Virus record (IMG/VR): IMGVR_UViG_3300024344_000085
Span: 1 to 30,235 of that record
DNA length: 30,235 bases
Source: a virus
Strand: one strand, 5' to 3'
Both the position numbers and the translations under genes were made by a program. The notes under the pieces were generated by a model that worked only from the letters and a program-made list of their open reading frames with translations, was not told the DNA's origin and searched no databases. Below are positions 6,207 through 30,235 of the stretch, one piece after another (within the stretch, counting starts at the first letter, position 1; the number at the start of each line of letters is the position of its first letter).

Positions 6207-8411
6207 TTACGCTCTACCGACCACTTCCTCGAACGAGACACCAGTTCTCGTTGCAACGAAGGTTAGAGTTACGTAGTTGATTGACTTCGATGGCTTCAGG
6301 AAGATATCTGCCCTGAATTCATTATTATCGATAACATCAGGAGTGTTGTTTGTTGTGTCGCAAACAACTAGGAATCCGTAGAGTCCTCTCTTCGCCTGAA
6401 CATCACGTAGATATGGTTCAACGATATTACGGAAGTTTGCCCGTGTTAATTCATCGTTGAGTTCAAAGAGTTGTGCTTCTGCTGCTTTAGATAATGCTTG
6501 CTCGACTGTTAAGAACAATCTTCTAACATTAATTCTATCAAATGCAGATGCAAATCCAAGACCTGTCTTGTCTCCGAATAACAGAGTACCAATTCCAGGT
6601 TGAGTTATGATTGAGTTAACTCTTGCAGGATAAAGTTTGTCTCTTTGTGCCTTTGTTGGGTTGTATGCTAGTTTAATTGCATTATTCAAGATACCACGTT
6701 GCTGTCCAGCAGGTGAGAACCAAGGATAAGAATTAACTGATGTGCGAGCCATTAGACCAGCAACATCTCCGTTTGTTGGAACCCAACGGAATTTATTATT
6801 GAATCTATCGTATGTGTACTTATATCCACTATCAAATACTGCATAAGAAGAAGATGATAATGTACTAAAGTAACTAATCAAGTTATTAGTTTGAGTATCA
6901 CTGTTAGTAACACCTACAACACTTGCTCTATGAGGACCAACTGTTGACATACAATCTTTTCTTGCATTAGAAAGAGAGATTACATAATTTGCTTTTGCTT
7001 GCGAATCATACTCTTCATCACATCCTGGACCCATAATAACATAATCTACTTCTATTTCATCTTCATTAGCGAACTTACCGTATCCAGTGATTAAGTCTGC
7101 TAGTGATGCCTTCATTCCCGTACCACTACCAAGCGTTCCTGAATAATCAGTTCCGTTAACCAGTATATACGTTGTAGCACCCGTAGCACTAAATGTAATT
7201 CCTTGAGCATCCTGTCCCCAAAGACCATCTGCAGTAGAAATTGGTGAGTATGAAGTAGCAGTACCATTAGATAATGTAAATCCAGTAGCAGCAGGAGTTG
7301 TACCCCAGTAACTATCAGCAGCACTTGATGGGTTACCACCAGCGTAAACATATTCTGAATAATCTGCAATAAACTGTTCGTACCAGATCTTCTGAGGAGA
7401 ATTGACTGCAGAAACTGCGTCAAGTGCCTTAGAAAGATTTAGATGCTTCTCAAGAATATTACCTTGAATACCTGTGATAGTTCCGTCATCATCAACGACA
7501 ACAACGTGGATACCATCTCCTTTACCTTGTCTATCAAGAGCGTACTTGTTAGTAACTGGTCTTGGAGCAATTGACTTCCAGAAAGTTGTTGCGTTAGTTA
7601 AACCAAGTGTTTGCTGGTCATACCAGTCAACAGCAGTACTAACTGTATGAGATGCACCAACTTTTACACCACTACCATTCAAGAATGTAACTGAATCAGC
7701 AGCACTGAAAGATGCATATCCTGCACCCTCTTCATAATCAATCTTTGTTTCTACCCCTGCAGTTGTTACTCTTGATACAACTTTAACGTCTGCTACGTTA
7801 GTTGCTGTATTGATACCAGTAACAATACCTTTAATATATCCAGAGAATAGTGATGTTGAACCTGCACCAGGAACAACTAAATCTGTCTTAGAAACTGAAA
7901 CACCTTGTCCAACTACTGCAGCATCAGGAACTTCTGTAAAAGAAAGTGTTTGATCTGCAAAGTCGTCAATAACACAAACTTTTAATCCATTTGCCCAAGT
8001 ACCTGGGTTCTTAGAAGCGTAGTTAAAGTTTGATGCTTCACTATGGTTAGCAATATAGTCGTCGTAGTTGTCAATTCTACCTGCACCAGTCATTGCAACT
8101 GATGAAACACCAACGGCAGCGTTAGCATTACTTAAAGTTGTTCCTGCTGCTCTTACTACTTTAAGTACTCCACCATACGAAAGGTATGATGATGCACTCA
8201 TCCAATAGGAATATTGATTATCGGTAGACTTTGGTTTACCGAATACGTTTATAAGATCTTGCTCAGTAGCAATATCTGTTGCCTCGTTAACAGGTCCAAT
8301 TGGAAACGGTCCTGCAATAGCACCAATGTTATCCAATACATTATCAGCTCTTCCTACTGTTAAGTCAACCTCCCTTACCAGTACCCCAGGAGATAATTGA
8401 GGAGTCGCCAT
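6207..8411 (-). CDS. 18: Tail sheath protein gp18
   Basis: This is the contractile sheath subunit of a myovirus tail. It has 734 residues (T4 gp18: 659). The N terminus MATPQLSPGVLVREVDLT with IGAIAGPFPIGPVNEA (residues 29-44) is the classic sheath start, and SSYLSYGGVLKVVRA (73-87) follows. The variable outward-facing middle is Gly, Ser and Thr rich. The C-terminal assembly domain is well kept: NPTKAQRDKLYPARVNSI, TGLGFASAFDRINVRRLFL, and the end SINYVTLTFVATRTGVSFEEV. A GGAGA ribosome site sits 8 bases before the ATG. It is followed by tube gene gp19 and preceded by gp17, as in T4. Confidence 0.97.
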   Translation of the reverse strand: MATPQLSPGVLVREVDLTVGRADNVLDNIGAIAGPFPIGPVNEATDIATEQDLINVFGKPKSTDNQYSYWMSASSYLSYGGVLKVVRAAGTTLSNANAAVGVSSVAMTGAGRIDNYDDYIANHSEASNFNYASKNPGTWANGLKVCVIDDFADQTLSFTEVPDAAVVGQGVSVSKTDLVVPGAGSTSLFSGYIKGIVTGINTATNVADVKVVSRVTTAGVETKIDYEEGAGYASFSAADSVTFLNGSGVKVGASHTVSTAVDWYDQQTLGLTNATTFWKSIAPRPVTNKYALDRQGKGDGIHVVVVDDDGTITGIQGNILEKHLNLSKALDAVSAVNSPQKIWYEQFIADYSEYVYAGGNPSSAADSYWGTTPAATGFTLSNGTATSYSPISTADGLWGQDAQGITFSATGATTYILVNGTDYSGTLGSGTGMKASLADLITGYGKFANEDEIEVDYVIMGPGCDEEYDSQAKANYVISLSNARKDCMSTVGPHRASVVGVTNSDTQTNNLISYFSTLSSSSYAVFDSGYKYTYDRFNNKFRWVPTNGDVAGLMARTSVNSYPWFSPAGQQRGILNNAIKLAYNPTKAQRDKLYPARVNSIITQPGIGTLLFGDKTGLGFASAFDRINVRRLFLTVEQALSKAAEAQLFELNDELTRANFRNIVEPYLRDVQAKRGLYGFLVVCDTTNNTPDVIDNNEFRADIFLKPSKSINYVTLTFVATRTGVSFEEVVGRA

Positions 8412-16568: not shown

Positions 16569-16576
16569 TATTTAGG
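16569..16576 (-). promoter_or_regulatory. Variant late promoter box overlapping the gp14 stop codon
   Basis: CCTAAATA on the minus strand. Its TAA (16574-16572) is the stop codon of gp14, and the gp15 ATG lies 19 bases downstream. It differs from TATAAATA at two positions. Confidence 0.35.
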
Positions 16577-18005
16577 GAGTACCAAATGGGTTCTGTTCAG
16601 TAAAGTCTAATATCTTATCTGCTTCTAATTCTATATTAGTATTGTCAGCAAATCCATCATCAGTAGGTTCTTCATCTACAATGCGTAATGCGTGTGATGC
16701 CTTAGATACAGATCCAACTATATTTTCTCCGATACTAAATGCACCAGAGATTGAAGATACTTCTAAAATATTTGTTATAGAATCCCAAGTTCTAACTCTT
16801 CCTGTAGCACCACTTACTGAACCTGTTACGGTTTCATTGAATATGTAATTACCTGAAGAATCTAATGAAGGATCTGATATACTTATATTTGGTATCTGAG
16901 TATAACCAGCACCAGCATTGGTGATATTAATAGCAGTAATACTACCTCCAGAACTTAAAACTGCATGTGCTGTAGCAGTGGTTCCAACTCCTGTTGGACC
17001 TGATATTGTAACAGTTGGTGAGGTTGTAAATCCACCACCACTTGATGTTACAGTGATAACTCCCACTAATCCATTACCAATATAGGCAGTTGCTGCTGCA
17101 CCTGCTCCACCACCTCCAGTAACTTGTACAAGAGGTGCGACAGTATATCCAGAACCTGGATTAACTAAATCTATGTTTTGAATAGATTTAGCATTTGCAT
17201 TTACATTTAAATTGCATACTTGAATACCACCAATCATCCTTGTAGTGGCAATACCAGTTACTCCACCTGAAGGTGCTGATGAGAATCCTATAGTAGGACT
17301 GTGGAGGTATCCACCGCCCCTGTCAGTGATTTGTACGAATCTTATACCACCAGTAGATATAATACTTGTTTCTGCTGCTGCAGTCGATCCTGTGCCGACT
17401 AGAGTGAATGTTTGAGTTGGTCCTAAGATAGTTGGAATACCATCCTCTGTAATCCCATCAGCATTATCTCCAGTTAACTCATCATCAATCTCAGCAATAC
17501 CAGTATCAATAACTTCATCTCCATAACGGAAGAGTTCACATCTCAATTCATAAACATAGGTTTTTTGAAGTTGATAGAAAGGTTTTTCATGTTCAACAAA
17601 CTTAATTTCAAATAGTCTATCACCCAATGGGAAATAGATTAAATCACCTTCTTTTGGTCTAGTGGATAATTTTACATCTGCCTCATTCTTCATCAAAGGT
17701 GAGATATAATCTTCAAATCTTTCCTTAGAAATAGTAAGAGTTATTTCGTTTGTTGCTTCAATACCAAACTTGGTTAGAAGAACTGGATTCTCTCCATATC
17801 CATCAAAAGTATCTACATATGCCTCTAAAGGATATGCGTCATCAAATTTAGATTGTACTACTTCCCTTATTATTTTATTTTCTTCAACATATTTTCTGGG
17901 CATATAATGTACTTCAACACCATACATCCTCAACTGTTCGTTGATTAAATCCTGAACTAAATTCTGTTCAGATCTTGCTCCTTGTTGAAAAAAGGGATTG
18001 AGCAC
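16572..18005 (-). CDS. 14: Neck protein gp14 with inserted repeat modules
   Basis: gp14 forms the head-closing neck with gp13 and binds the tail cap. At 477 residues it is much longer than T4 gp14 (256). Residues 1-175 are the conserved core: MLNPFFQQGARSEQNLVQDL, MYGVEVHYMPRKYVEENKI, DGYGENPVLLTKFGI, FPLGDRLFEIKFVEHEKPFY, TYVYELRCELFRYGDEVI. Residues 215-385 are a Gly-rich insertion with four GxGY-type units (230, 284, 323, 365), and 393-440 form an SGATG-type unit. The tail ADKILDFTEQNPFGTP returns to core type. The start is GTG at 18005, with AGG 8 bases before it, inside the end of gp13. The insertion probably projects from the neck, perhaps as collar or whisker-like decoration; that is inference. 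Confidence 0.93.
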   Translation of the reverse strand: MLNPFFQQGARSEQNLVQDLINEQLRMYGVEVHYMPRKYVEENKIIREVVQSKFDDAYPLEAYVDTFDGYGENPVLLTKFGIEATNEITLTISKERFEDYISPLMKNEADVKLSTRPKEGDLIYFPLGDRLFEIKFVEHEKPFYQLQKTYVYELRCELFRYGDEVIDTGIAEIDDELTGDNADGITEDGIPTILGPTQTFTLVGTGSTAAAETSIISTGGIRFVQITDRGGGYLHSPTIGFSSAPSGGVTGIATTRMIGGIQVCNLNVNANAKSIQNIDLVNPGSGYTVAPLVQVTGGGGAGAAATAYIGNGLVGVITVTSSGGGFTTSPTVTISGPTGVGTTATAHAVLSSGGSITAINITNAGAGYTQIPNISISDPSLDSSGNYIFNETVTGSVSGATGRVRTWDSITNILEVSSISGAFSIGENIVGSVSKASHALRIVDEEPTDDGFADNTNIELEADKILDFTEQNPFGTP

Positions 18006-19263: not shown

Positions 19264-19474
19264 TGTAGACTAACTCCTTAAGTAAAGATTTGATTTCGTT
19301 CATTTCATTTTTTAAATTAGCGAGATCCTCTTCCATATTTGTTACTTTATCGTTTTCTTTTGCTTTTACTTTACGACGTGTCACATATCTTTCATAATCT
19401 GAAGCATTAGTGTTAATAATAGCATTTGATTTGGGATCTCGTTTGAGATCCGCATTACCTTCTACGTTAATCAT
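19253..19474 (-). CDS. Small coiled-coil protein of the tail region
   Basis: A 73-residue charged protein. It starts MINVEGNADLKRDPKSNAII (1-20) and ends in a predicted coiled coil, NMEEDLANLKNEMNEIKSLL, with hydrophobic residues in heptad register. The gene overlaps the stop of the 2470-residue gene by an ATGA (19471-19474) and the next gene by 11 bases, so all three are probably translated together. It resembles short proteins found at this place in marine T4-like phages, from memory rather than from a search. The helix may bring together copies of a baseplate or fibre part. The function is not known. Confidence 0.82.
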   Translation of the reverse strand: MINVEGNADLKRDPKSNAIINTNASDYERYVTRRKVKAKENDKVTNMEEDLANLKNEMNEIKSLLKELVYNVK

Positions 19475-22400
19475 GCTAATGCCATCACTCTCAATCTTCT
19501 TGCACGAGGTACATGTACCTGTGATGTTGAAGTCATTACAAGTTTAATTCTGTAATACCTATATGAAGGCAATTCATCTGCAGTAAATGTATATTCAACA
19601 TAATCAAGATCTTTAGCATCTTGTCCATAACCATTTGATTTTGTAATAAAATCGTCTGTCGAACCATCATTATTTGCAGAGTCAATAACTTCTCCATTCT
19701 TGTTCAAGTTTGCATATCCAGGGAATGGAACAAACACAGGATCAATTCCTGGTTGAGCATTGACTGCATAGAATGCTCTAATGTCTGTATTAACATTAAT
19801 ATGAGCATCTAATATTATCTTCAAGGAAGATGCAGAATTTTCCAATTCCATTTCTTTGGAGATGTATTGACACGCATTAGGATCATTATCAATAGTCTTT
19901 ACTTGTGCGTTAGTAGCGTAACTTGTTACTGGATTATTAATTCTATTAGAAGTTAATATTGCACTAATCCTTTGACCATCAATTACAGGACTCACCCAAC
20001 TGTTAGTTGTATTGAGTGTAAACTTCATATTCAAAGACTTATTACCAGGAAGAGTTGTTAACTTATTGTCTGCATTTACTTTTGAAGCAATCAATCTTGG
20101 TGTATTTAAGTAATTGCTTTCATTCGGAACTACAGCATCAAAACCAGTATCAAGGAATGATATTTCATTACCACCCAAACTAGTTCCTGTAACAGTTCTT
20201 ACATTAGCAGTAATGCTTGTCTGTGGAAGAGTTACATTAGATACTAGAGGTGTAATAATTTCAAAAGGAACATTTTGAGTTGCAGTTATCTTAGAACCAC
20301 CAGCAGATTTTGAATTGTTAAAGAATAGTTGTGGGAATCCAACATCATTACTTCTGTCATCATTTGTATCCTTATATTTCTTGGACATATCCAATTTAAC
20401 ATTGTAGGAATCAAATTTAATCTCATCAACTACATCATGCGTAGTATTAAGTCTCCATAAACCAACTCCATCCAATTCATACTTATAAACTGGAGTTCCA
20501 ACTGGATAATCAACTGAAGTTGAACCTCTTACAATATTTCCACCAATTGTATTACCTGAAGTATTTGTATACTCGATAATTTCATCACCTATTCTTAGAA
20601 GTCCAACGTTAGTAGTTCCTACACCTACATTCTCATAGTTGGTAAAGATACCAGCATTTTCAACTGATATTGCTGCTGTAGATCCTACAGGATAAGCAGT
20701 AGCAAGTTTTGTAGGAATAGAATCTGATTCTATCTTTGCTAATGTTACTTTATTGTCAGTAGAATACATTCCATGATTCTTATGATTGACATTGATGGTT
20801 AATCCATCATTTACAGAAACAATAGAACCTATCTGAACATCTCCTCCGTTTGCATTATTCAATACTGTAGTAATACCAGCATTGTTAATGAAACTCAAAG
20901 TATTTGCTGAACCTACAACAAAGTTGCCTTCAACATTGTCGAGAATTAATTCAGAAGTGCTTCCAATAGATGTAACAGTCATCTTAGCATTTCTTCCTAT
21001 AGAATTAGCACCAATAGTTGCTATTCCTACAACATCACCTATTTGATATCCAGTACCACCGTTAGAGATAGTTGCACCAGATGCAACGATTGATCCTCCA
21101 TTGATAGTAATGTTTGCAGTTGCATTTCTACCATTACCAGTAAGAGTTACTAAGTTGACTCCAGTAAAGGTTAATTGACCAGATGCTGGAGTATAACCTA
21201 AACCTGCATTGGTTATATTAAGACCACCTGCAGTTCCAGCAGAACCAACATAATCACCAGTTGCCTGAGTTCCACCTTGAACAACAGTATTGCCTAATAA
21301 GAAGTCTGTGTCACCAACTGTTGTACCAAGACCAACTCTGACTTGTCTAGAATTGATTTCTAGAGAATCTGGCATTAGTTGAGCAATTTGTCCGTTTCCT
21401 ATATCTAATTGTGGGTTATAAGTATCAAATGAACCACTTTCTATGAAGTCTGCTCTATAGAGAGTAAACTTAAGATCTTCCCACTGACTAGGTTCCCATG
21501 TAGAAGCATTTTGAGACTTAAATAAACTTCCAAGTATTGGTTGATTAGAAACAAAGGTTTGATTGGTTACATCATTTTCACCAACTCTAGAAATATAAAC
21601 ACTATATTTTGCGGAATTGGATAACATTACCATTGCATATTCCCTACCTGCTTCAAGATAAACAGGTGCATCAAATTGGAAAGTAGTAGACTGAGTAGCA
21701 TCAGTAGATAATACCACTTCATCAGGATCTAACGATACCTGTGATAATGGAACTATAGTTTGTGTAGGTACTCCATTCTCCATAGTTCTGATAGAGAACT
21801 GAACAGGAACACCCATGTCATCTTTTGTTCTAAAGAAAACATCACATCTAGTTAAGAATACTCCTTCAGGATTATCTATTATAAAGGATTGTGCTAATGG
21901 GTCACCATTTCTTTGCCATTGAGCAGTCAATTCATCTCTAGTTGTAACACCTAGATTTGCAGTTATGCTGTCTTCTGCTGTTACTTCATTAATAGTGACT
22001 GTAGCATTTCTAGTCGAAATAATATCTTCTCTTACTGTATTAAGAGTTCCTGTTGCTGTATAATCTTGTTCTGCACTTGTAGTAGCATCTTGAGCATTGC
22101 CAGCATCACTTGACAATCTAAACAAGGACTTACCCGTTTCAAAACTAGGGAAAGTATTGTTATTTGGATTAGGAATAAAGAAAGAACCTAATAAAGAACC
22201 TGATAATGAAGAAATCAAACGTACACTACTAATACTTGCTTGAGCACCACTAGTTTGACCTGTAAGGAGCATTCCAGAAGCAACCCATCCATAGAAGTCA
22301 GTTTGACTTATATCTGCTAATCCAGCGACATCTATGTTCAATAAAGTTGATGAAGATGTATATGTTGTAGGGATTGAACCTGATGTATATGGATCTTCTG

Positions 22401-25400
22401 CATAGGTTCTTGAAGGAACATTAAATGAACCACTTCTATGATTAGGATTTGCAACCCTAAATTGAATATAAGCAGAAGAACTATTTCTATTTGAACCAGA
22501 GTTCATTCTTCCAATTACAGTTTCTCCAACTTGGAATGCTCCTGATGACATGCTTATTTGCAATAACTTAGGAACACAGAAACGTGATACTTCTCTACCA
22601 GCAAAGAAAGCATATACTCTAGTTAATGGTTTAACACCTTGAGCAGTAAACTGAACATTTCTTGACCTTACAAAAGTAATAAGTTCTCTATTTATTATTC
22701 TATCACCTAAAGAAACATCATTTCTGGTTTCTGTTACTAAAACTTCTCTACCAGATCTTTGTCTACGCTGATCTTGTAAAGTTGCTGTGGATTCCCTTCT
22801 AAATCTTTGCTCTGTCCTACCTAGAGATCTACCCCAGTTACTAACAGATGTTGCTTGTCTAGTATCTCCAGCCCATGTTACTCTCCAAGAATCCCACGCA
22901 GTATTAACAAATCCAATCTGAGGGTCTCTTCCTAAAATTTGACGTGCTCTTGCTACTTGTGATGAGAAATTACCTTCTACAACTGTTCTTGCTTGTATTC
23001 TGACCGTATCTGTCCAAGTATCTGATTGTGGTGTTAGTGCTAAAATACCATTCCAGAAAGGAACAATAAATGGTGTTACACTAACTGACCTAGTTGCAAA
23101 TGCTTGTTTAAACCATTCAACTTCAGCATAATCTAAAGTTACGATACCATTATTACGTCTAACATTAACCCCTTCAATTTGAGCAGTAGTAGGATCTTGT
23201 GTTGCATCTACATTGACCACAGGACCAAACATAAGGTCAACTGAAGTTGTATAATGGCTTGGTCTCAATTCCTTGTTCTTTGTATCAATACTATTTTTGA
23301 TAAAACGCTCATCTTGAGACAAGAAGTTCTCAAAATTATCCACAAAGAATCCAGACTTAAATCTGTTCAATCCATTTGCATCAGAAACAAAGAAGTTTTG
23401 AGTATTTGTTTCTAATAATGAAAGTGCAGTATAATATTCTAAATTACTAATTCTTTGCTCTAGTCTTCTAATATCACCCATTGTATAACGAATGTATTCA
23501 AGAGAAGTAACTGAAACATCCTGATCAATATTGCAAAGATATGGTGCATGACTGATAGTAGCAATTTCTATAGAATCATCAACTTTTGCTGGTTTTTGTG
23601 GTTGTTGTGAAGATAATCCTGTTACTAATTGTATTTTTCCACTCTTAGTCAAACAAACAACATCTGTTCTACCAACATAATGAGAGAATGTAGTTAAAAT
23701 ATTCTCATCAGATGCTAAAATACTATTTGAAGAATTGCCAGAAGAATCAAAATTCCTTCCTTTGAATTCTAATGGAGATCTAGAACCTTCAGTAACAGTA
23801 TATTCATTAACTCTTGGTCTAATATCAATTACATCACTATTTTTGATATTTTCATAATATGGTATTTCGCTGCAATAATCAAAGGACTCATAAGAATCTG
23901 AAGTTGTTATATCACCAGTATCATTTGCATCATAATATGCACTCAAGAAATAAATCTTAATTTGATTAGAAGGTACTTTTACATCACTGTTTTTAGTAAT
24001 AAATCCCTGATTATATTGAGTAGTTTCTTGTCCTGTAGAGAAAGTATAATTATCTGTTATATCAAAACTAGATTCAATTACGGTTGTTACTATTGCCGAC
24101 ACATTTGATTCTGAGGAAGCAATAGTCTCACCTTCCACAAACTGACCATCATTTTTATAGATAAACTCAATTTGAGATGGTGTAACAATACTTGCTACAA
24201 TAGCAACTGCACCACTGGTCTGTCCCGTAATTTTTTCACCTACAACATATTCTGCAGTAGTATTTGATGGACTCGTAATAGTGTTAAGAGTTGCTTTTGG
24301 TGCTGCTGGTGTATTAGTATCCCCAGACTCAAATACAGCATGTAGATCAATTACATCAGGAGTGTTGAGAGAAATAACCTCATCTTCTACTCTTGTACCA
24401 AAAGGATAATTACCATGAGTTAGACCATTATTTAATGTTGTTGTTCCTATACCAGAACCAACAAGAATAGACTTATCAACAACAATAGAATTAACTCTAT
24501 TTCTTATTTTAGTTTTTGATGTTGGTTTTACTTTTGTTAATGTGGTTATAAGAGTTGCATTAGTTGTATCAGAACCCAAATTACCAATTTGTAAGGTTTT
24601 GCCACCATTAGTAAAGATAAACTTATCTGCACTTAATGTTTCAGTTGCCCCATCCGTTCTCTGTAAGGAATATCTTTCTTCATCGAATGGTAAGTATGAC
24701 TCATTATCACCAGCATTTACTAAACTAGTTTTATTACCTGATATACTAACATTATATGTTTTTCTAATTGTAATCGATGCATTTGTTAAATCAACATCTG
24801 ATATGTACTGATTAGGAAGTTCAGTAAACAAACTATTGTCAGATGAACTTTGCAACTCTGTAGTTAAGACTTTAAAGTCAGTTACCTCTCTAACAGAAGT
24901 TGGCAAACTTCCATTTACTATACCATCAACATCAGCAACGTTTGTGATTGTTATAGTGTTTGTACCAATTGCAGTAACCTTACCATAAGTAGGATCATTT
25001 GATTTAGCAGAATTGCTAAATTGAACGAGATTATTTACTTTTACTAAAGTACCAGGAAATCTTTCATTAGGACTTGTAACTGTACTGAATCCACCAGAGG
25101 AAGCACTAATAGTAGCAATACCAATATTAGATGAAGTTGATTGAATTACATCAGCATTAAAGATAGATGATAATCCAACAGTACCTGAATATGGTGTAGC
25201 ACCAACATCTCTGGTACTAAATATGGATTTTACGTCTTCAATACCATGAGCAGTTACTGCTATTGCAATCTTCCCACTTAAGATACCATTGACAATTATT
25301 GGTTCATTTTTAATGAAATCACCCGAAGTTTCATATACTTCTAAACTAGCATTATCTGTGATAGGATTAAATAAGAATCCTGTTGCACCACTATTAGCAC

Positions 25401-26883
25401 CTTTTATGTGAGTTGGTGTAGTAAGTGTGCTTTGTTGGTTTAGAGTAATCTGAGTAGTTGTTTGTACATCATATAGAGAAATATCCCACTCATTCAATAC
25501 TGAATTATTATTATAGGTTCCACCTTCTAATGCAAAATCATATATTCTAGCAACACCTATCTCATTACCACCAGCAGTAGTATTTCCTGCACCGATTCTA
25601 CTATCTCTCAAACTAACAATAGTATTATTTGCTGTACTTATTCCTGGTGAACCAAAAACTCTATTTAATTTTAATGTTGGGCCAGTATTATAAATTATAG
25701 ACTCATCTTCTATAGTAAAAGAAGTGCGTGGTTTAGGTGCATCAACAAGAGTAGGACGTACTTTTCTAACCTCATATCCCTTTACAAATGCTGCTCCCTC
25801 CGAAACTTTATAAACAATTTTATCTTCTGCTGGAATATCTCCACCTGCAGTAAACTCTTCAATGTCATATAAACCATTATTGCCTTCATTATCATTTAAT
25901 GAATTAATAACAGAAACATCAAATGCACCTAATGTATAGTTTCCTGATTCCGCAAATGTTCTTTTTGCTAAAGCCTCTGTTAATTCTTTTTGAAATGGAC
26001 TTCCTGCAACTTTACCAGGTATTCTTAATACACCATTTTCAACAGTTCCTAATTCTACAAAATTAGAATCTTCAAAATCATCTAATGATTTCTTAAATAA
26101 AGATGCTGTAATCTTTAATCTATCTGCTCCTGGTGCAGCAAAGTTATTATATCCCTGTGAATTATCATTTAAAGTTTCATCTAAATCAGATGTAATTATT
26201 TCTTCATTTACATTTAAACCAATTCTGTAGTTTGGAGTATTAGAATATTGATCTAATATTAATGTCTCATCATCAACATTAACAAAATTCCCATGAATGA
26301 AATATACACCATTCTGAATAGAGAATGATGATCCTACAATAGCAGACCCTGATTGTAGTGTAGACGCAAATGGAGTATTAGCAGCAATCGAACTATTACC
26401 AAGTAAACCAGAAGTAATATCGGTATTACAAACTAATTCTTCACCATCACTAAAAGATTCAGTTGAATTATTAACTGTACTTGAACTCAAATAATTTACA
26501 TAAAGAGTTAAATTGCCATTATCGGAATTTGTAGGTAACAATACTTCAGTAACATATGCAGTTACTCCAGAAGTTTGTCCCGTAATTTTTGTACCAACTA
26601 ATTGATCCGCATATGCAGATACAGGAACACCTTGATAAGTATTACTTAATTGCAATCCTGTATATTGCCTTTGATAGGTTGTATTACCAGGAATTACTTT
26701 AGCACCATCTTTAAAAAAGTGCTGACCAAACTTTTCAATCTGGTTTTGTAATATTGATTGAAGTCCTGTTAACTCTCTTGCTTGGACTGGAAATCCAGGC
26801 TTAAACAGCACCTTATGAAAATCATCAGAAGGATCAAAGTCGTCGAAATACGGAGCAACGTTTAGATTAGTTTGTTGTGGCAT
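19471..26883 (-). CDS. Giant DUF4815-type baseplate/tail-fibre protein
   Basis: At 2470 residues this is the largest gene here. The N terminus (MPQQTNLNVAPYFDDFDPSD, VLFKPGFPVQARELTGLQSI) matches the DUF4815 family of marine T4-like virion proteins as I remember it. SGATG-type units occur near residues 96-165, 490-540, 875-945 and 1535-1560, and GxGY units near 1893 and 1945. A central part has SVTPFIVPFWNGILALTPQS, followed by an Arg-rich stretch, then GVKPLTRVYAFFAGREVSRF and the lectin-like DPLAQSFIIDNPEGVFLTRC. The C terminus (LPSYRYYRIKLVMTSTSQVH) is strand-rich. It lies between gp8 and gp13, where T4 has gp9-gp12 and wac, so it may replace some of them. AAGGA is 3 bases before the ATG. 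Confidence 0.9.
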   Translation of the reverse strand: MPQQTNLNVAPYFDDFDPSDDFHKVLFKPGFPVQARELTGLQSILQNQIEKFGQHFFKDGAKVIPGNTTYQRQYTGLQLSNTYQGVPVSAYADQLVGTKITGQTSGVTAYVTEVLLPTNSDNGNLTLYVNYLSSSTVNNSTESFSDGEELVCNTDITSGLLGNSSIAANTPFASTLQSGSAIVGSSFSIQNGVYFIHGNFVNVDDETLILDQYSNTPNYRIGLNVNEEIITSDLDETLNDNSQGYNNFAAPGADRLKITASLFKKSLDDFEDSNFVELGTVENGVLRIPGKVAGSPFQKELTEALAKRTFAESGNYTLGAFDVSVINSLNDNEGNNGLYDIEEFTAGGDIPAEDKIVYKVSEGAAFVKGYEVRKVRPTLVDAPKPRTSFTIEDESIIYNTGPTLKLNRVFGSPGISTANNTIVSLRDSRIGAGNTTAGGNEIGVARIYDFALEGGTYNNNSVLNEWDISLYDVQTTTQITLNQQSTLTTPTHIKGANSGATGFLFNPITDNASLEVYETSGDFIKNEPIIVNGILSGKIAIAVTAHGIEDVKSIFSTRDVGATPYSGTVGLSSIFNADVIQSTSSNIGIATISASSGGFSTVTSPNERFPGTLVKVNNLVQFSNSAKSNDPTYGKVTAIGTNTITITNVADVDGIVNGSLPTSVREVTDFKVLTTELQSSSDNSLFTELPNQYISDVDLTNASITIRKTYNVSISGNKTSLVNAGDNESYLPFDEERYSLQRTDGATETLSADKFIFTNGGKTLQIGNLGSDTTNATLITTLTKVKPTSKTKIRNRVNSIVVDKSILVGSGIGTTTLNNGLTHGNYPFGTRVEDEVISLNTPDVIDLHAVFESGDTNTPAAPKATLNTITSPSNTTAEYVVGEKITGQTSGAVAIVASIVTPSQIEFIYKNDGQFVEGETIASSESNVSAIVTTVIESSFDITDNYTFSTGQETTQYNQGFITKNSDVKVPSNQIKIYFLSAYYDANDTGDITTSDSYESFDYCSEIPYYENIKNSDVIDIRPRVNEYTVTEGSRSPLEFKGRNFDSSGNSSNSILASDENILTTFSHYVGRTDVVCLTKSGKIQLVTGLSSQQPQKPAKVDDSIEIATISHAPYLCNIDQDVSVTSLEYIRYTMGDIRRLEQRISNLEYYTALSLLETNTQNFFVSDANGLNRFKSGFFVDNFENFLSQDERFIKNSIDTKNKELRPSHYTTSVDLMFGPVVNVDATQDPTTAQIEGVNVRRNNGIVTLDYAEVEWFKQAFATRSVSVTPFIVPFWNGILALTPQSDTWTDTVRIQARTVVEGNFSSQVARARQILGRDPQIGFVNTAWDSWRVTWAGDTRQATSVSNWGRSLGRTEQRFRRESTATLQDQRRQRSGREVLVTETRNDVSLGDRIINRELITFVRSRNVQFTAQGVKPLTRVYAFFAGREVSRFCVPKLLQISMSSGAFQVGETVIGRMNSGSNRNSSSAYIQFRVANPNHRSGSFNVPSRTYAEDPYTSGSIPTTYTSSSTLLNIDVAGLADISQTDFYGWVASGMLLTGQTSGAQASISSVRLISSLSGSLLGSFFIPNPNNNTFPSFETGKSLFRLSSDAGNAQDATTSAEQDYTATGTLNTVREDIISTRNATVTINEVTAEDSITANLGVTTRDELTAQWQRNGDPLAQSFIIDNPEGVFLTRCDVFFRTKDDMGVPVQFSIRTMENGVPTQTIVPLSQVSLDPDEVVLSTDATQSTTFQFDAPVYLEAGREYAMVMLSNSAKYSVYISRVGENDVTNQTFVSNQPILGSLFKSQNASTWEPSQWEDLKFTLYRADFIESGSFDTYNPQLDIGNGQIAQLMPDSLEINSRQVRVGLGTTVGDTDFLLGNTVVQGGTQATGDYVGSAGTAGGLNITNAGLGYTPASGQLTFTGVNLVTLTGNGRNATANITINGGSIVASGATISNGGTGYQIGDVVGIATIGANSIGRNAKMTVTSIGSTSELILDNVEGNFVVGSANTLSFINNAGITTVLNNANGGDVQIGSIVSVNDGLTINVNHKNHGMYSTDNKVTLAKIESDSIPTKLATAYPVGSTAAISVENAGIFTNYENVGVGTTNVGLLRIGDEIIEYTNTSGNTIGGNIVRGSTSVDYPVGTPVYKYELDGVGLWRLNTTHDVVDEIKFDSYNVKLDMSKKYKDTNDDRSNDVGFPQLFFNNSKSAGGSKITATQNVPFEIITPLVSNVTLPQTSITANVRTVTGTSLGGNEISFLDTGFDAVVPNESNYLNTPRLIASKVNADNKLTTLPGNKSLNMKFTLNTTNSWVSPVIDGQRISAILTSNRINNPVTSYATNAQVKTIDNDPNACQYISKEMELENSASSLKIILDAHINVNTDIRAFYAVNAQPGIDPVFVPFPGYANLNKNGEVIDSANNDGSTDDFITKSNGYGQDAKDLDYVEYTFTADELPSYRYYRIKLVMTSTSQVHVPRARRLRVMALA

Positions 26884-26899
26884 AATTCCTTATTATTCC

Positions 26900-28450
26900 T
26901 TAGAATTGCAAAATGACTTTAATGTCTTCTTTTTGGTTGGATGATCTAGTAATAGAAGGTCTATTATCAACATATATTATGTTTCCTGTGTATTTTTCAA
27001 CTTCAGGACTGCCAATACCATTCGTGAAAGTTTGACCCAAGTAATATGTTTTATTATTTATTACGGTACTGATACCGCTAAATGATGAATCTATGCTTAG
27101 ATTAGACACTGATGCATGACTAATATCTAAACTTCCAGGTGCTGTTGGATTGCTTGAGAATTGAACTAATTCATATCCGTATGTTGGGTCAGTTTGTGCT
27201 GTTCCAACTGTATTGAATCCTGCAAGAGTTCTATCTTGCCAGAACTTTAACACTCCAGTAGTCTGGTCATAACTAACCACTCTACCCACTGCAGTAGATC
27301 CTGCAGCAACTGTTTGTGTAAATTCACCATCCATAGTAAATACTGCACTACTATAACCAACACCAGTTATTTTTAATGCAGACAAAGCACTTGCTTTATC
27401 AGCAACTAGTAGTGAAGATGGTGTTGCTTTTGGATTTTCTACAATTCCAATCCTAGCAAACTCATTTCCTGTTACAAAATCAGGATTCTCTGTATCATTT
27501 TCAATTCTAGAATATAAAAGAACATTGTATGCACCAAGTTCTCTATAGATATCAGCACCATGTCCTCCTTCAGGAGAAATGACAACATCAAGACTTGGTG
27601 AAGTAGTTCCAGCAGGAACTCCACCAGCATCTAAATCAACATTGGCATAAGTGTATCCTGAACCTTGACTAGAAACAACTACAGAATCAACTGTTTGGTC
27701 GTTGTTGATAACCACTGTGCATTCAGCACCAGTGCCATTACCTCTGATAGGAACTCTAGTATAAGTTCTATTTGCAGTACCAATACCAACTCCACGGTTA
27801 TTAATGGTTACAATTTTAACTGAACCATCAACAGCATTATTACGAACAGGTGCATTATCCGAAGAAGTTGCCCAATCTGTAGGTACAGGAATAAAATTAG
27901 TCGAATCAAACTTTATAATGTCACTTGGTTTAATCGTATACAAATACTTCCAGATATATCCATCACCACTTGTTCCTGCTGACCTTGGTTCTAAATCAAT
28001 AAATGTAGGTTCATCTAAAGAAGATTTACCATTTGGCGTTTCTGGTGTTGTACCATTTTGAAGGCACTCATAAACTCTGTATTCTGAATTAAGAACATAA
28101 TATGTGGCATTATATAAATTAGTCGCACCTGAAACTTTAGCAGTGTTTGTTCTGCTATAGTCAGCACGGTACATATCATAAACTGTACCTGATGTCCATT
28201 GGCGTTTTGGAATTACTTGTCTAGTATCCGACGCAGTAATCTTTTTCAACGCAATCATATCATCCCAATATTTGTTCTCCTCATTAAAACTATCTTTAGG
28301 TGCAGGAGGATTTTTCTCCCAATCAGATTGGTAATCAGTTGGATTAGGCAATCCAATGAATGAATAATAAGAATTTGCACTTGAAGATACTCCAGCAACG
28401 AAGTTCTTTGCGTTTAATATTCTAATCTGATCAGTTATAATCGCAGACAT
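26900..28450 (-). CDS. 8: Baseplate wedge protein gp8 (enlarged)
   Basis: gp8 is a structural dimer of the baseplate wedge. Resemblance to T4 gp8 is visible without alignment. VIPKRQWTSGTVYD (79-92) matches the T4 IPRRDW region, and GDGYIWKYLYTIKPSD (162-177) matches T4 GDGYVWEYLFEIPPD. The C-terminal IIYVDNRPSITRSSNQKEDI with final KVILQF matches T4 MIYMENRPPI...EEINILFTF. At 516 residues it exceeds T4 gp8 (334). The extra length includes a GxGY-type unit near 210-295 (GSGY at 263-266) and a unit with VAAGSTAVGRVVSYDQTTGV near 381. No Shine-Dalgarno sequence precedes the ATG, but AATAAATA boxes lie 14 and 18 bases before it. Confidence 0.92.
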   Translation of the reverse strand: MSAIITDQIRILNAKNFVAGVSSSANSYYSFIGLPNPTDYQSDWEKNPPAPKDSFNEENKYWDDMIALKKITASDTRQVIPKRQWTSGTVYDMYRADYSRTNTAKVSGATNLYNATYYVLNSEYRVYECLQNGTTPETPNGKSSLDEPTFIDLEPRSAGTSGDGYIWKYLYTIKPSDIIKFDSTNFIPVPTDWATSSDNAPVRNNAVDGSVKIVTINNRGVGIGTANRTYTRVPIRGNGTGAECTVVINNDQTVDSVVVSSQGSGYTYANVDLDAGGVPAGTTSPSLDVVISPEGGHGADIYRELGAYNVLLYSRIENDTENPDFVTGNEFARIGIVENPKATPSSLLVADKASALSALKITGVGYSSAVFTMDGEFTQTVAAGSTAVGRVVSYDQTTGVLKFWQDRTLAGFNTVGTAQTDPTYGYELVQFSSNPTAPGSLDISHASVSNLSIDSSFSGISTVINNKTYYLGQTFTNGIGSPEVEKYTGNIIYVDNRPSITRSSNQKEDIKVILQF

Positions 28451-28481: not shown

Positions 28482-29669
28482 TTATATAGATGGGTATATT
28501 GTCAATGTTCCATTCATTGCTGAGTGGTTTTGACAAACATAATAAAGAGTGTTTGGTGCATCAAAAGGAATCTGGAATTTTATTGTTCCAACAGCAGCAC
28601 CAGGATTGGTAACGCCAGTTTCATATTGAGTTCCAGCATCATAAGCACCAGAAGTAGTTTGTATTCTAAATGGGTGACCACTTGCATTGACAGCAAACTC
28701 ATAAGTTTGTCCTCTTGCAAGATAAATTGTGGGATCCTCTGCAGCACTCAAATTACCTGGACCAGTAAAGGTATAGTGACTAGAACCACTATTAGCAACT
28801 GCCCACTGTGATGTCACAATTGATGAACCATCACCATAAAATGTTGTAGTAGTTACAGAACTAATTCCTGTTATATTTGTTGAGTTATCACCTATAATAT
28901 TTCCATTCGTTTTAATATCACCCGCAAACGTGGAAATACCAGCAACAGTTAAAGAAGCCGTATCTACAAATGCAGTGCTACCACCACCAACTCCAGTTAA
29001 GTTTGATCCATCACCAAAGAGAGTAGCAGCAGTTACTGAACCAGCAGTAGAAACATTAGAAGCAGTTAATATTCCAGTTACAACTGCATTAGTTCTTATA
29101 TCTACTCCATTATTGCTATTAAGGTAGACCTTATCATTAGAATCTGTTCCACTAGCGGTAATATTAGTTCTAGCACCACTATCAAGATTCATACCATAAA
29201 CGGAGTAGATAGCTGCTGTTGAACCATATGAACCCCAACCAAAACCAATTCTCAAATTATCTGCTGCACTTCCCCATCTAATTACATCACCATTACCTGC
29301 ACCATTAACAAAGTGAATTGTATTCTCATCTATTAAACTTATCGTTTTACCAGTATAAACAACTACGTCATCTGTGATAGTTGTTATTCCAAGAGTAGAA
29401 ATACCAGAAACATTTAAAGAACCAGTATTTACATGAGATGTACCTGCTGAACCCGTAATTGTTACTTGTCCACTTCCACCAGAAACACTTATATTATCTC
29501 CAGCAACAATAGAAGTAACAATACCAGGTGCCAGGTTGGTAGTCGAACCTGCACCTAATAAGGTGTAAAGTTCATCAAAATTACTATTGACTCTAGCAGC
29601 ACCAACTAACAGACTACTACCTGTGCCGTCGTCTGGTGCTGCCCCCGTTGATATTCCTAACTTTGCCAT
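28482..29669 (-). CDS. Fibre-like virion protein with C-terminal cupredoxin-like domain
   Basis: A 395-residue protein. The N terminus (DDGTGSSLLVGAARVNSNFD, residues 13-32, then ELYTLLG) is a common virion-attachment start in marine T4-like fibre proteins. The middle is a Gly/Ser/Thr-rich shaft with the units LFGDGSNLTGV (217-227) and FYGDGSSIVTS (277-287). Residues 288-395 look like a cupredoxin: ARGQTYEFAVNASGHPFRIQ contains His332, and YYVCQNHSAM gives Cys379, His382 and Met385. The C-x2-H-x2-M spacing is that of amicyanin, so all four type 1 copper ligands appear present. Copper binding is not shown. The gene lies upstream of gp8, and a TCTAAATA box is 23 bases before the ATG; no Shine-Dalgarno sequence is visible. 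Confidence 0.87.
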   Translation of the reverse strand: MAKLGISTGAAPDDGTGSSLLVGAARVNSNFDELYTLLGAGSTTNLAPGIVTSIVAGDNISVSGGSGQVTITGSAGTSHVNTGSLNVSGISTLGITTITDDVVVYTGKTISLIDENTIHFVNGAGNGDVIRWGSAADNLRIGFGWGSYGSTAAIYSVYGMNLDSGARTNITASGTDSNDKVYLNSNNGVDIRTNAVVTGILTASNVSTAGSVTAATLFGDGSNLTGVGGGSTAFVDTASLTVAGISTFAGDIKTNGNIIGDNSTNITGISSVTTTTFYGDGSSIVTSQWAVANSGSSHYTFTGPGNLSAAEDPTIYLARGQTYEFAVNASGHPFRIQTTSGAYDAGTQYETGVTNPGAAVGTIKFQIPFDAPNTLYYVCQNHSAMNGTLTIYPSI

Positions 29670-29692: not shown

Positions 29693-29700
29693 TATTTAGA
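29693..29700 (-). promoter_or_regulatory. Variant late promoter box overlapping a stop codon
   Basis: TCTAAATA on the minus strand; its TAA (29698-29696) is the stop codon of the upstream partial gene. The cupredoxin-gene ATG lies 23 bases downstream. Confidence 0.38.
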
Positions 29701-30235
29701 TAATATAATTAGAGGACTTCAAAGGAATTGTCCGTTGTACTAATGGCCAAGTAGAGATTCCACTTATACCATCATTTGGATAAACCTCAAACTGATTAGT
29801 TTCAGATCTGCCTGTAAGAGTAATCTTACCCCAACTATAATTACCAAAGTAATTAGAAGCAGTTATGATTCCTGCAAATCCACTTCCTGTTCCTTCACCA
29901 TCATCATCAAAAGTATAGAACTCAGAAGAGAAGTCAATACCAGTGGTTCCAAAGGTAACCGTTGAAAGACCACTTATATTTGCATAAACTCTTCTTACAA
30001 CAGTCATTCCCACACCAACTACATTTCTAGTAACATTACTTACTGCACTTACTTGGTATATGTTATCAATAAATTGAGTTCCTACACCAATTATATTATT
30101 ATCAACATCTTTAGAAGTTATAGATGTTGTAGCACTTCCTGCATTAGATGCAAAGACCATAAAGTAATCTTGAAGATCAAGAGAACTAATAGTAATCGCA
30201 GTTCCAACTAATTTTGTTTCTCTTAAATCAGAATA
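29696..30235 (-). CDS. C-terminal end of a large virion protein (5' end beyond the window)
   Basis: The frame is open to the right edge (YSDLRETKLVGTAITISSLD at the edge), so the Met at 30160 is probably internal and the gene starts outside the window. The visible 179 residues are strand-rich, with IGVGTQFIDNIYQVSAVSNV and VVGVGMTVVRRVYANI-type units, then EFYTFDDDGEGTGSGFAGII, and an end with NYFGNYSWGKITLTGRSETN. Similar C termini occur in long structural proteins of marine T4-like phages, as far as I recall. It precedes the cupredoxin gene and gp8, the position of gp7 or other wedge proteins in T4. I do not assign it a name. Confidence 0.8.
   Translation of the reverse strand, partial: YSDLRETKLVGTAITISSLDLQDYFMVFASNAGSATTSITSKDVDNNIIGVGTQFIDNIYQVSAVSNVTRNVVGVGMTVVRRVYANISGLSTVTFGTTGIDFSSEFYTFDDDGEGTGSGFAGIITASNYFGNYSWGKITLTGRSETNQFEVYPNDGISGISTWPLVQRTIPLKSSNYII

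Follow-up and report, generated by a model that had tools for sequence, protein, structure and literature searches.

The window analyzed here, a virus record of 30,235 bases, is a structural module of a T4-like phage in which all genes lie on the minus strand. It encodes the scaffold, protease, portal, tail tube, sheath, terminase subunits, sheath stabiliser and neck proteins, together with a 2,470-aa protein, gp8, a gene bearing a cupredoxin domain, and the end of a gp7-like gene (Table 1). Two other virion proteins of the window deserve mention in their own right. The 2,470-aa protein, directly after gp8 (19471-26883), contains a DUF4815 region (phrog_358, a family without assigned function) and is a large conserved structural protein. 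The neck protein (head closure Hc2; 16572-18005) has an extra C-terminal stretch, at about residues 200-440, that matches fibre and virion structural families and that we read as a fused decoration domain.

The cupredoxin-bearing gene sits between the gp7-like and gp8 genes, and its product matches phrog_677, the PHROG family 'baseplate wedge tail fiber protein connector' (gp9), across the protein. The domain-bearing gene of the Prochlorococcus phage P-TIM68 and of the Synechococcus phage RB11-B likewise lies between a 'baseplate wedge initiator' gene and a gp8-type gene. Because of the phrog_677 membership, the gp7/gp9/gp8 gene order and the reuse of the domain in fibre and baseplate proteins described below, we read the protein as a baseplate fibre. 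The initial annotation of this DNA had described an anonymous fibre-like protein; the fibre stands, but the protein can be named as a gp9-type baseplate connector.

Table 1. Position of the connector gene, its parts, its putative copper ligands and its neighbours in the window.
Feature	Position	Strand	Basis
gp9-type baseplate wedge tail fibre connector, 395 aa, one Cys	28482..29669	-	phrog_677, E 9.1e-51
T4 gp9/gp10-like N-terminal baseplate anchor, residues 1 to ~60	29490..29669	-	PF07880, phrog_6942, T4 gp10 chains
Low-complexity shaft, relatives differ in length	28818..29489	-	Alignment; low confidence as single chain
Cupredoxin domain, residues 285-395	28485..28817	-	AlphaFold2 pLDDT 94.3, pTM 0.86; PDB fold matches
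His332, putative copper ligand 1 (in SGHPF)	28674..28676	-	Position, conservation
Cys379, putative copper ligand 2	28533..28535	-	Position, conservation
His382, putative copper ligand 3	28524..28526	-	Position, conservation
Met385, putative copper ligand 4	28515..28517	-	Position, conservation
gp8 baseplate wedge subunit, neighbour	26900..28450	-	phrog_438, E 1.5e-165; PF09215
gp7-like baseplate wedge gene, end only (window edge)	29696..30235	-	phrog_2885, E 7.5e-14, profile columns 4074-4178/4179

The connector consists of three parts. At the N-terminus, residues 1-60 match phrog_6942 (E = 6e-10), residues 4-77 match the T4 gp10 chains 2fl8/5hx2 (E = 2.5e-4), and a match to PF07880 (E = 3.5e-4) falls under the cut-off of that family. 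The relatives range from 388 to 793 aa overall, and their alignment shows a shaft of variable length between two conserved ends. When the full-length protein was modelled as a single chain, a confident fold was obtained only for residues ~285-395, with low confidence for the shaft. These results refine the earlier picture of a terminal domain at residues 288-395 on an otherwise low-complexity protein: the end of the domain is unchanged, whereas its start moves to about residue 285, where the confidently folded region begins, and the low-complexity shaft is confined to the middle of the protein, given that the first ~60 residues are T4 gp9/gp10-like.

The fold of the C-terminal domain was predicted with AlphaFold2 from an alignment of 37 domain sequences and with high confidence (Table 1). 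In a comparison with PDB folds, the leading matches of the model were cupredoxins (Foldseek probability 1.00), with rusticyanin (E = 6.5e-6) and the type 1 domain of a three-domain nitrite reductase (E = 4.5e-5) at the top, and with two-domain laccase, plastocyanin, AcoP and auracyanin among the further matches. The TM-scores against these solved cupredoxins are moderate, about 0.45-0.62. A comparison with predicted viral proteins (BFVD) brought up mostly fibre and connector proteins of cyanophages, with TM-scores up to 0.97. Judging from the model, residues 285-395 almost certainly adopt the cupredoxin fold that had been proposed from the sequence. The BFVD matches also include, at a TM-score of ~0.7, small 'beta-sandwich proteins' from giant-virus metagenome assemblies (Pithovirus LCPAC302, Marseillevirus LCMAC201/202).

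The reading frame and the codons of H332, C379, H382 and M385 had been assigned correctly in the initial annotation, and in the predicted structure these four residues are placed where type 1 copper ligands belong. The first His is located in the turn between two strands, the Cys ends the penultimate strand, and the Met just precedes the last strand. The ligand loop, CQNHSAM (residues 379-385), conforms to the pattern C-x2-H-x2-M, which occurs in 6e-5 of shuffles of the connector protein. Across every stop-to-stop frame of 60 or more residues in the window, 14,205 residues in total, the pattern appears a single time. Cys379 is the sole cysteine of the 395-aa protein. A CuA centre, as in cytochrome oxidase, involves two Cys ligands and is therefore ruled out.

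All four ligands were invariant in our first alignments, but these sequences had been found in part through CQNHSAM, in a scan that is biased to the ligand loop and was left out of the conservation figure. The search was therefore repeated with a query restricted to the stretch of the domain N-terminal to the first ligand, yielding 46 non-redundant domains (45 recovered plus that of the window). In this set, His, Cys, His and Met are all present in 45 of the 46 domains, in agreement with the conservation expected from the initial annotation, and the Met is invariant, whereas the loop positions neighbouring the ligands vary. The four residues are retained as well in the distant relatives of S-TIM5, P-HM2 gp7, S-H9-2 and S-BM3.

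The sole exception represents a clade of gp9 proteins (alignment labels L169-L173 and L183) in which Ala (or a similar residue), Ala and Phe align to His, Cys and His, respectively, with the Met and the rest of the domain retained. Going by the alignment, this clade could serve as a natural metal-free control. Some remoter fibre copies, in S-RIM2 and PSS2, also lack some or all ligands. In a second group (L136, L137, L140, L142-L145 and L175), the loop is longer by one residue, Cys-x3-His-x2-Met, and HGF replaces HPF; this longer loop may tune the site differently. These sequences form one clade in the domain tree, which has too few columns to resolve deep branching and serves here only to group ligand states. 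Joint retention and joint loss are both predicted by a single metal site. The losses in the gp9 clade and in the remote copies indicate that the metal is not essential everywhere and that a fibre can be maintained in its absence. At the sequence level, then, the ligand pattern points to one metal site that is dispensable in some lineages.

The domain is common among ocean phages. At least 355 public phage records match it at E <= 1e-5, almost all from Synechococcus and Prochlorococcus phages, and a more divergent subfamily is matched in 269 records, among them those of Pelagibacter and Methylophilales phages. The recurrence in other marine phages that had been suggested initially is thus borne out. 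Counted independently of the 355 domain records, relatives of the adjacent gp8 are represented in about 458 cyanophage-named records. The carriers are mostly myoviruses and include the Autographiviridae podoviruses P-GSP1 and P-SCSP2, with the domain reused among fibre and baseplate proteins of both groups. Placement at the tip, as suggested initially, holds for the C-terminus of the connector and of most gp9 relatives but is not general, because the domain stands at the N-terminus of the podovirus proteins, and in larger proteins it lies internally or occurs more than once. It is present too in proteins of S-BM3 (L107) and S-H9-1 (L200) whose annotation is peptidase S8 or subtilisin-like protease, and is therefore found also on putative virion proteases.

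A genome-collection scan with the profile of the close relatives yielded no confirmed relatives. With the profile of another subgroup, seven bacterial contigs with relatives were detected (L110-L116). These include a single-domain, lipoprotein-like protein of 144 aa from a Flavobacteriaceae genome (L112; match at 8001-8312), a collagen-like protein of an Ilumatobacteraceae genome that ends in the domain, and a copy in which Asn replaces the first His (L110). Most of the bacterial relatives come from metagenome assemblies, in which stray viral sequence could be included; they are a possible cellular source of the module.

Taken together, these results confirm the initial observation and support its structural reading, with a predicted cupredoxin domain at the end of the connector. 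We interpret the four residues as a type 1 site because of the confident model and its cupredoxin-led PDB matches, the canonical ligand placement, the conservation in 45 of 46 domains, the joint loss, and the alignment of the nitrite reductase segment YICTLHPWMKGTI to the Tyr-Cys-x2-His-x2-Met loop of the domain. A functional type 1-like metal site formed by H332/C379/H382/M385 is, in our assessment, highly probable.

We prefer the reading in which the domain is a contact module and its metal plays a chiefly structural part, and we give this reading about an even chance of being right. By similarity to T4 gp9/gp10, the N-terminus of the connector would be anchored to the baseplate wedge, followed by a shaft of lineage-specific length and then by the C-terminal cupredoxin, presumably exposed at the outer end. 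From their position, conservation and joint loss, the four residues would bind a copper ion in a type 1 site, acquired either during assembly or out of sea water. Most likely, the metal would then hold together the loops that close one end of the beta-sandwich, thereby setting the face with which the domain touches either the surface of the host cell or an adjacent fibre. If T4 gp9 is taken as a guide, each baseplate would have several copies, with one site each. Redox chemistry at the putative site is possible but is not required by the evidence. Against this reading we count the weak copper-protein profiles, all below their cut-offs, the moderate TM-scores, the copies that lack ligands, and the Pro that follows the first His in the phage connector domain; in plastocyanin and amicyanin, this residue is usually Asn.

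The complete and conserved ligand set, which includes an axial Met as in typical redox cupredoxins, is also what would be seen if the domain were an electron-transfer module, that is, a working blue copper centre that passes electrons to and from host-surface partners or sea-water copper and thus triggers or senses infection. However, neither a partner nor an electron path is known, the domains occur anywhere along fibres, including internal and tandem positions, and one lineage lost the ligands yet kept the fibre; we consider such a role unlikely. The identity of the metal raises a separate question. Cupredoxin sites can take up zinc when expressed in bacteria, and neither cells nor sea water contain much free copper, so that the virion site might hold zinc or another metal in a purely structural capacity. 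A Cys/His/His/Met set with a retained Met is nonetheless typical of copper sites, and the invariance of the Met in the unbiased set makes replacement of copper by another metal improbable.

A further alternative is a copper counterpart of the iron Trojan Horse, in which the loaded domain would act as bait recognised by host proteins for copper uptake or surface copper handling. It would have a precedent in the fibre metal and the Trojan Horse hypothesis already proposed for iron (PMC11705849), and there are secreted-type proteins among the bacterial relatives. Evidence for a receptor is absent, though, type 1 sites hold their copper buried, and the ligand-less gp9 clade exists, all of which renders a bait function quite unlikely. 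Still less credence can be given to a metal-free, cupredoxin-like scaffold in which the four residues are kept for packing only. Such a scaffold would fit the ligand-less copies in which the rest of the domain is conserved, as well as the failure of every profile to reach a curated copper-protein cut-off, but near-perfect joint conservation at the canonical sites, and loss that is joint rather than piecemeal, would not be expected from packing alone. Finally, although the shaft is of low complexity, a chance motif can be rejected with near certainty given its rarity in shuffles of a protein with one Cys in 395 residues, its conservation in hundreds of phage records and the confident cupredoxin fold.

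In the open literature that we searched, we found no description of a cupredoxin or blue copper domain on a phage virion, tail or fibre, a result that leaves absence elsewhere unproven. As a type, the domain is familiar; its location on the virion and how common it is among ocean phages appear to be undescribed in the literature searched. In the most far-reaching version, many marine T4-like cyanophages and some podoviruses would display copper-loaded, redox-capable cupredoxins on the virion exterior for contact with the host, and copper status or a redox signal at the cell surface would influence infection. We regard this version as rather improbable; if true, phage adsorption would include a hitherto unknown step that depends on a metal, and virions would be a widespread copper ligand in particulate form in sea water. 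Marine cyanophages are abundant and their adsorption is poorly known, and the conserved copper-type site on a baseplate fibre provides a concrete, testable handle. Such a site would place copper next to iron in the list of trace metals for which carriage by virions has been proposed, and would suggest a link between sea-water copper chemistry and infection. There is also a gain in annotation, namely, a fold and a likely cofactor for proteins whose present label is hypothetical protein, tail fiber or, in some cases, peptidase.

By sequence profile, the window domain remains under every curated copper-protein cut-off. Pfam Copper-bind (PF00127) gives E = 0.016 and 16.0 bits against a cut-off of 21.2 bits, with a best E of 0.0012 among the relatives; for amicyanin the best E is 0.0077, and the halocyanin profile is far under its cut-off. 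For the profile of the A2 domain alignment, the best match among solved sequences is nitrite reductase (E = 0.015). Searches of PDB sequences with the domain or with a small profile put designed 'Bagel' proteins and a repeat protein on top; we discarded these short repeat matches as meaningless.

Among the known systems, the closest are the gp9 connectors of cyanophages such as P-TIM68, syn9 and S-SSM5, which share with the window protein the family (phrog_677), the gene order and the C-terminal ligand-bearing domain but differ in the length and sequence of the shaft; phrog_677 is annotated as a connector, and the copper-type domain is not mentioned. T4 gp9 and gp10 resemble the N-terminal anchor region of the connector, and the T4 protein matches do not include the C-terminal cupredoxin. 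The nearest solved folds, rusticyanin and the type 1 domain of nitrite reductase, likewise present a His followed by Cys, His and Met in this order. They are, however, periplasmic redox proteins, whereas the phage domain is one domain of a virion fibre and only weakly similar to them in sequence. The amicyanin type proposed initially holds for the length of the C-x2-H-x2-M loop but not for the identity of the domain; the nearest folds are those of rusticyanin, the nitrite reductase type 1 domain and plastocyanin. Weak amicyanin profile matches were obtained for 10 of the 37 relatives, the score is 13.5 bits against the cut-off of 110.2 bits for the amicyanin equivalog TIGR02657 (NCBIfam), and the methylamine dehydrogenase context of amicyanin is absent.

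Plastocyanin, including that encoded by phage petE, has the cupredoxin fold and the ligand types in common with the phage domain. Phage petE is a separate gene, with matches in 400 phage records, and PetE has a C-x2-H-x4-M loop and HN after the first His, as opposed to C-x2-H-x2-M and HP. An origin of the domain from phage petE is not supported; the profile comparison covers only 28 columns, with a probability of 2.2%. Iron is bound by HxH motifs in the gp37 fibre of T4, for which a Trojan Horse use has been proposed (PMC11705849). There, too, metal resides on an exposed phage fibre, but as iron held by His pairs in the shaft, unlike the folded, copper-type domain of the phage cupredoxin.
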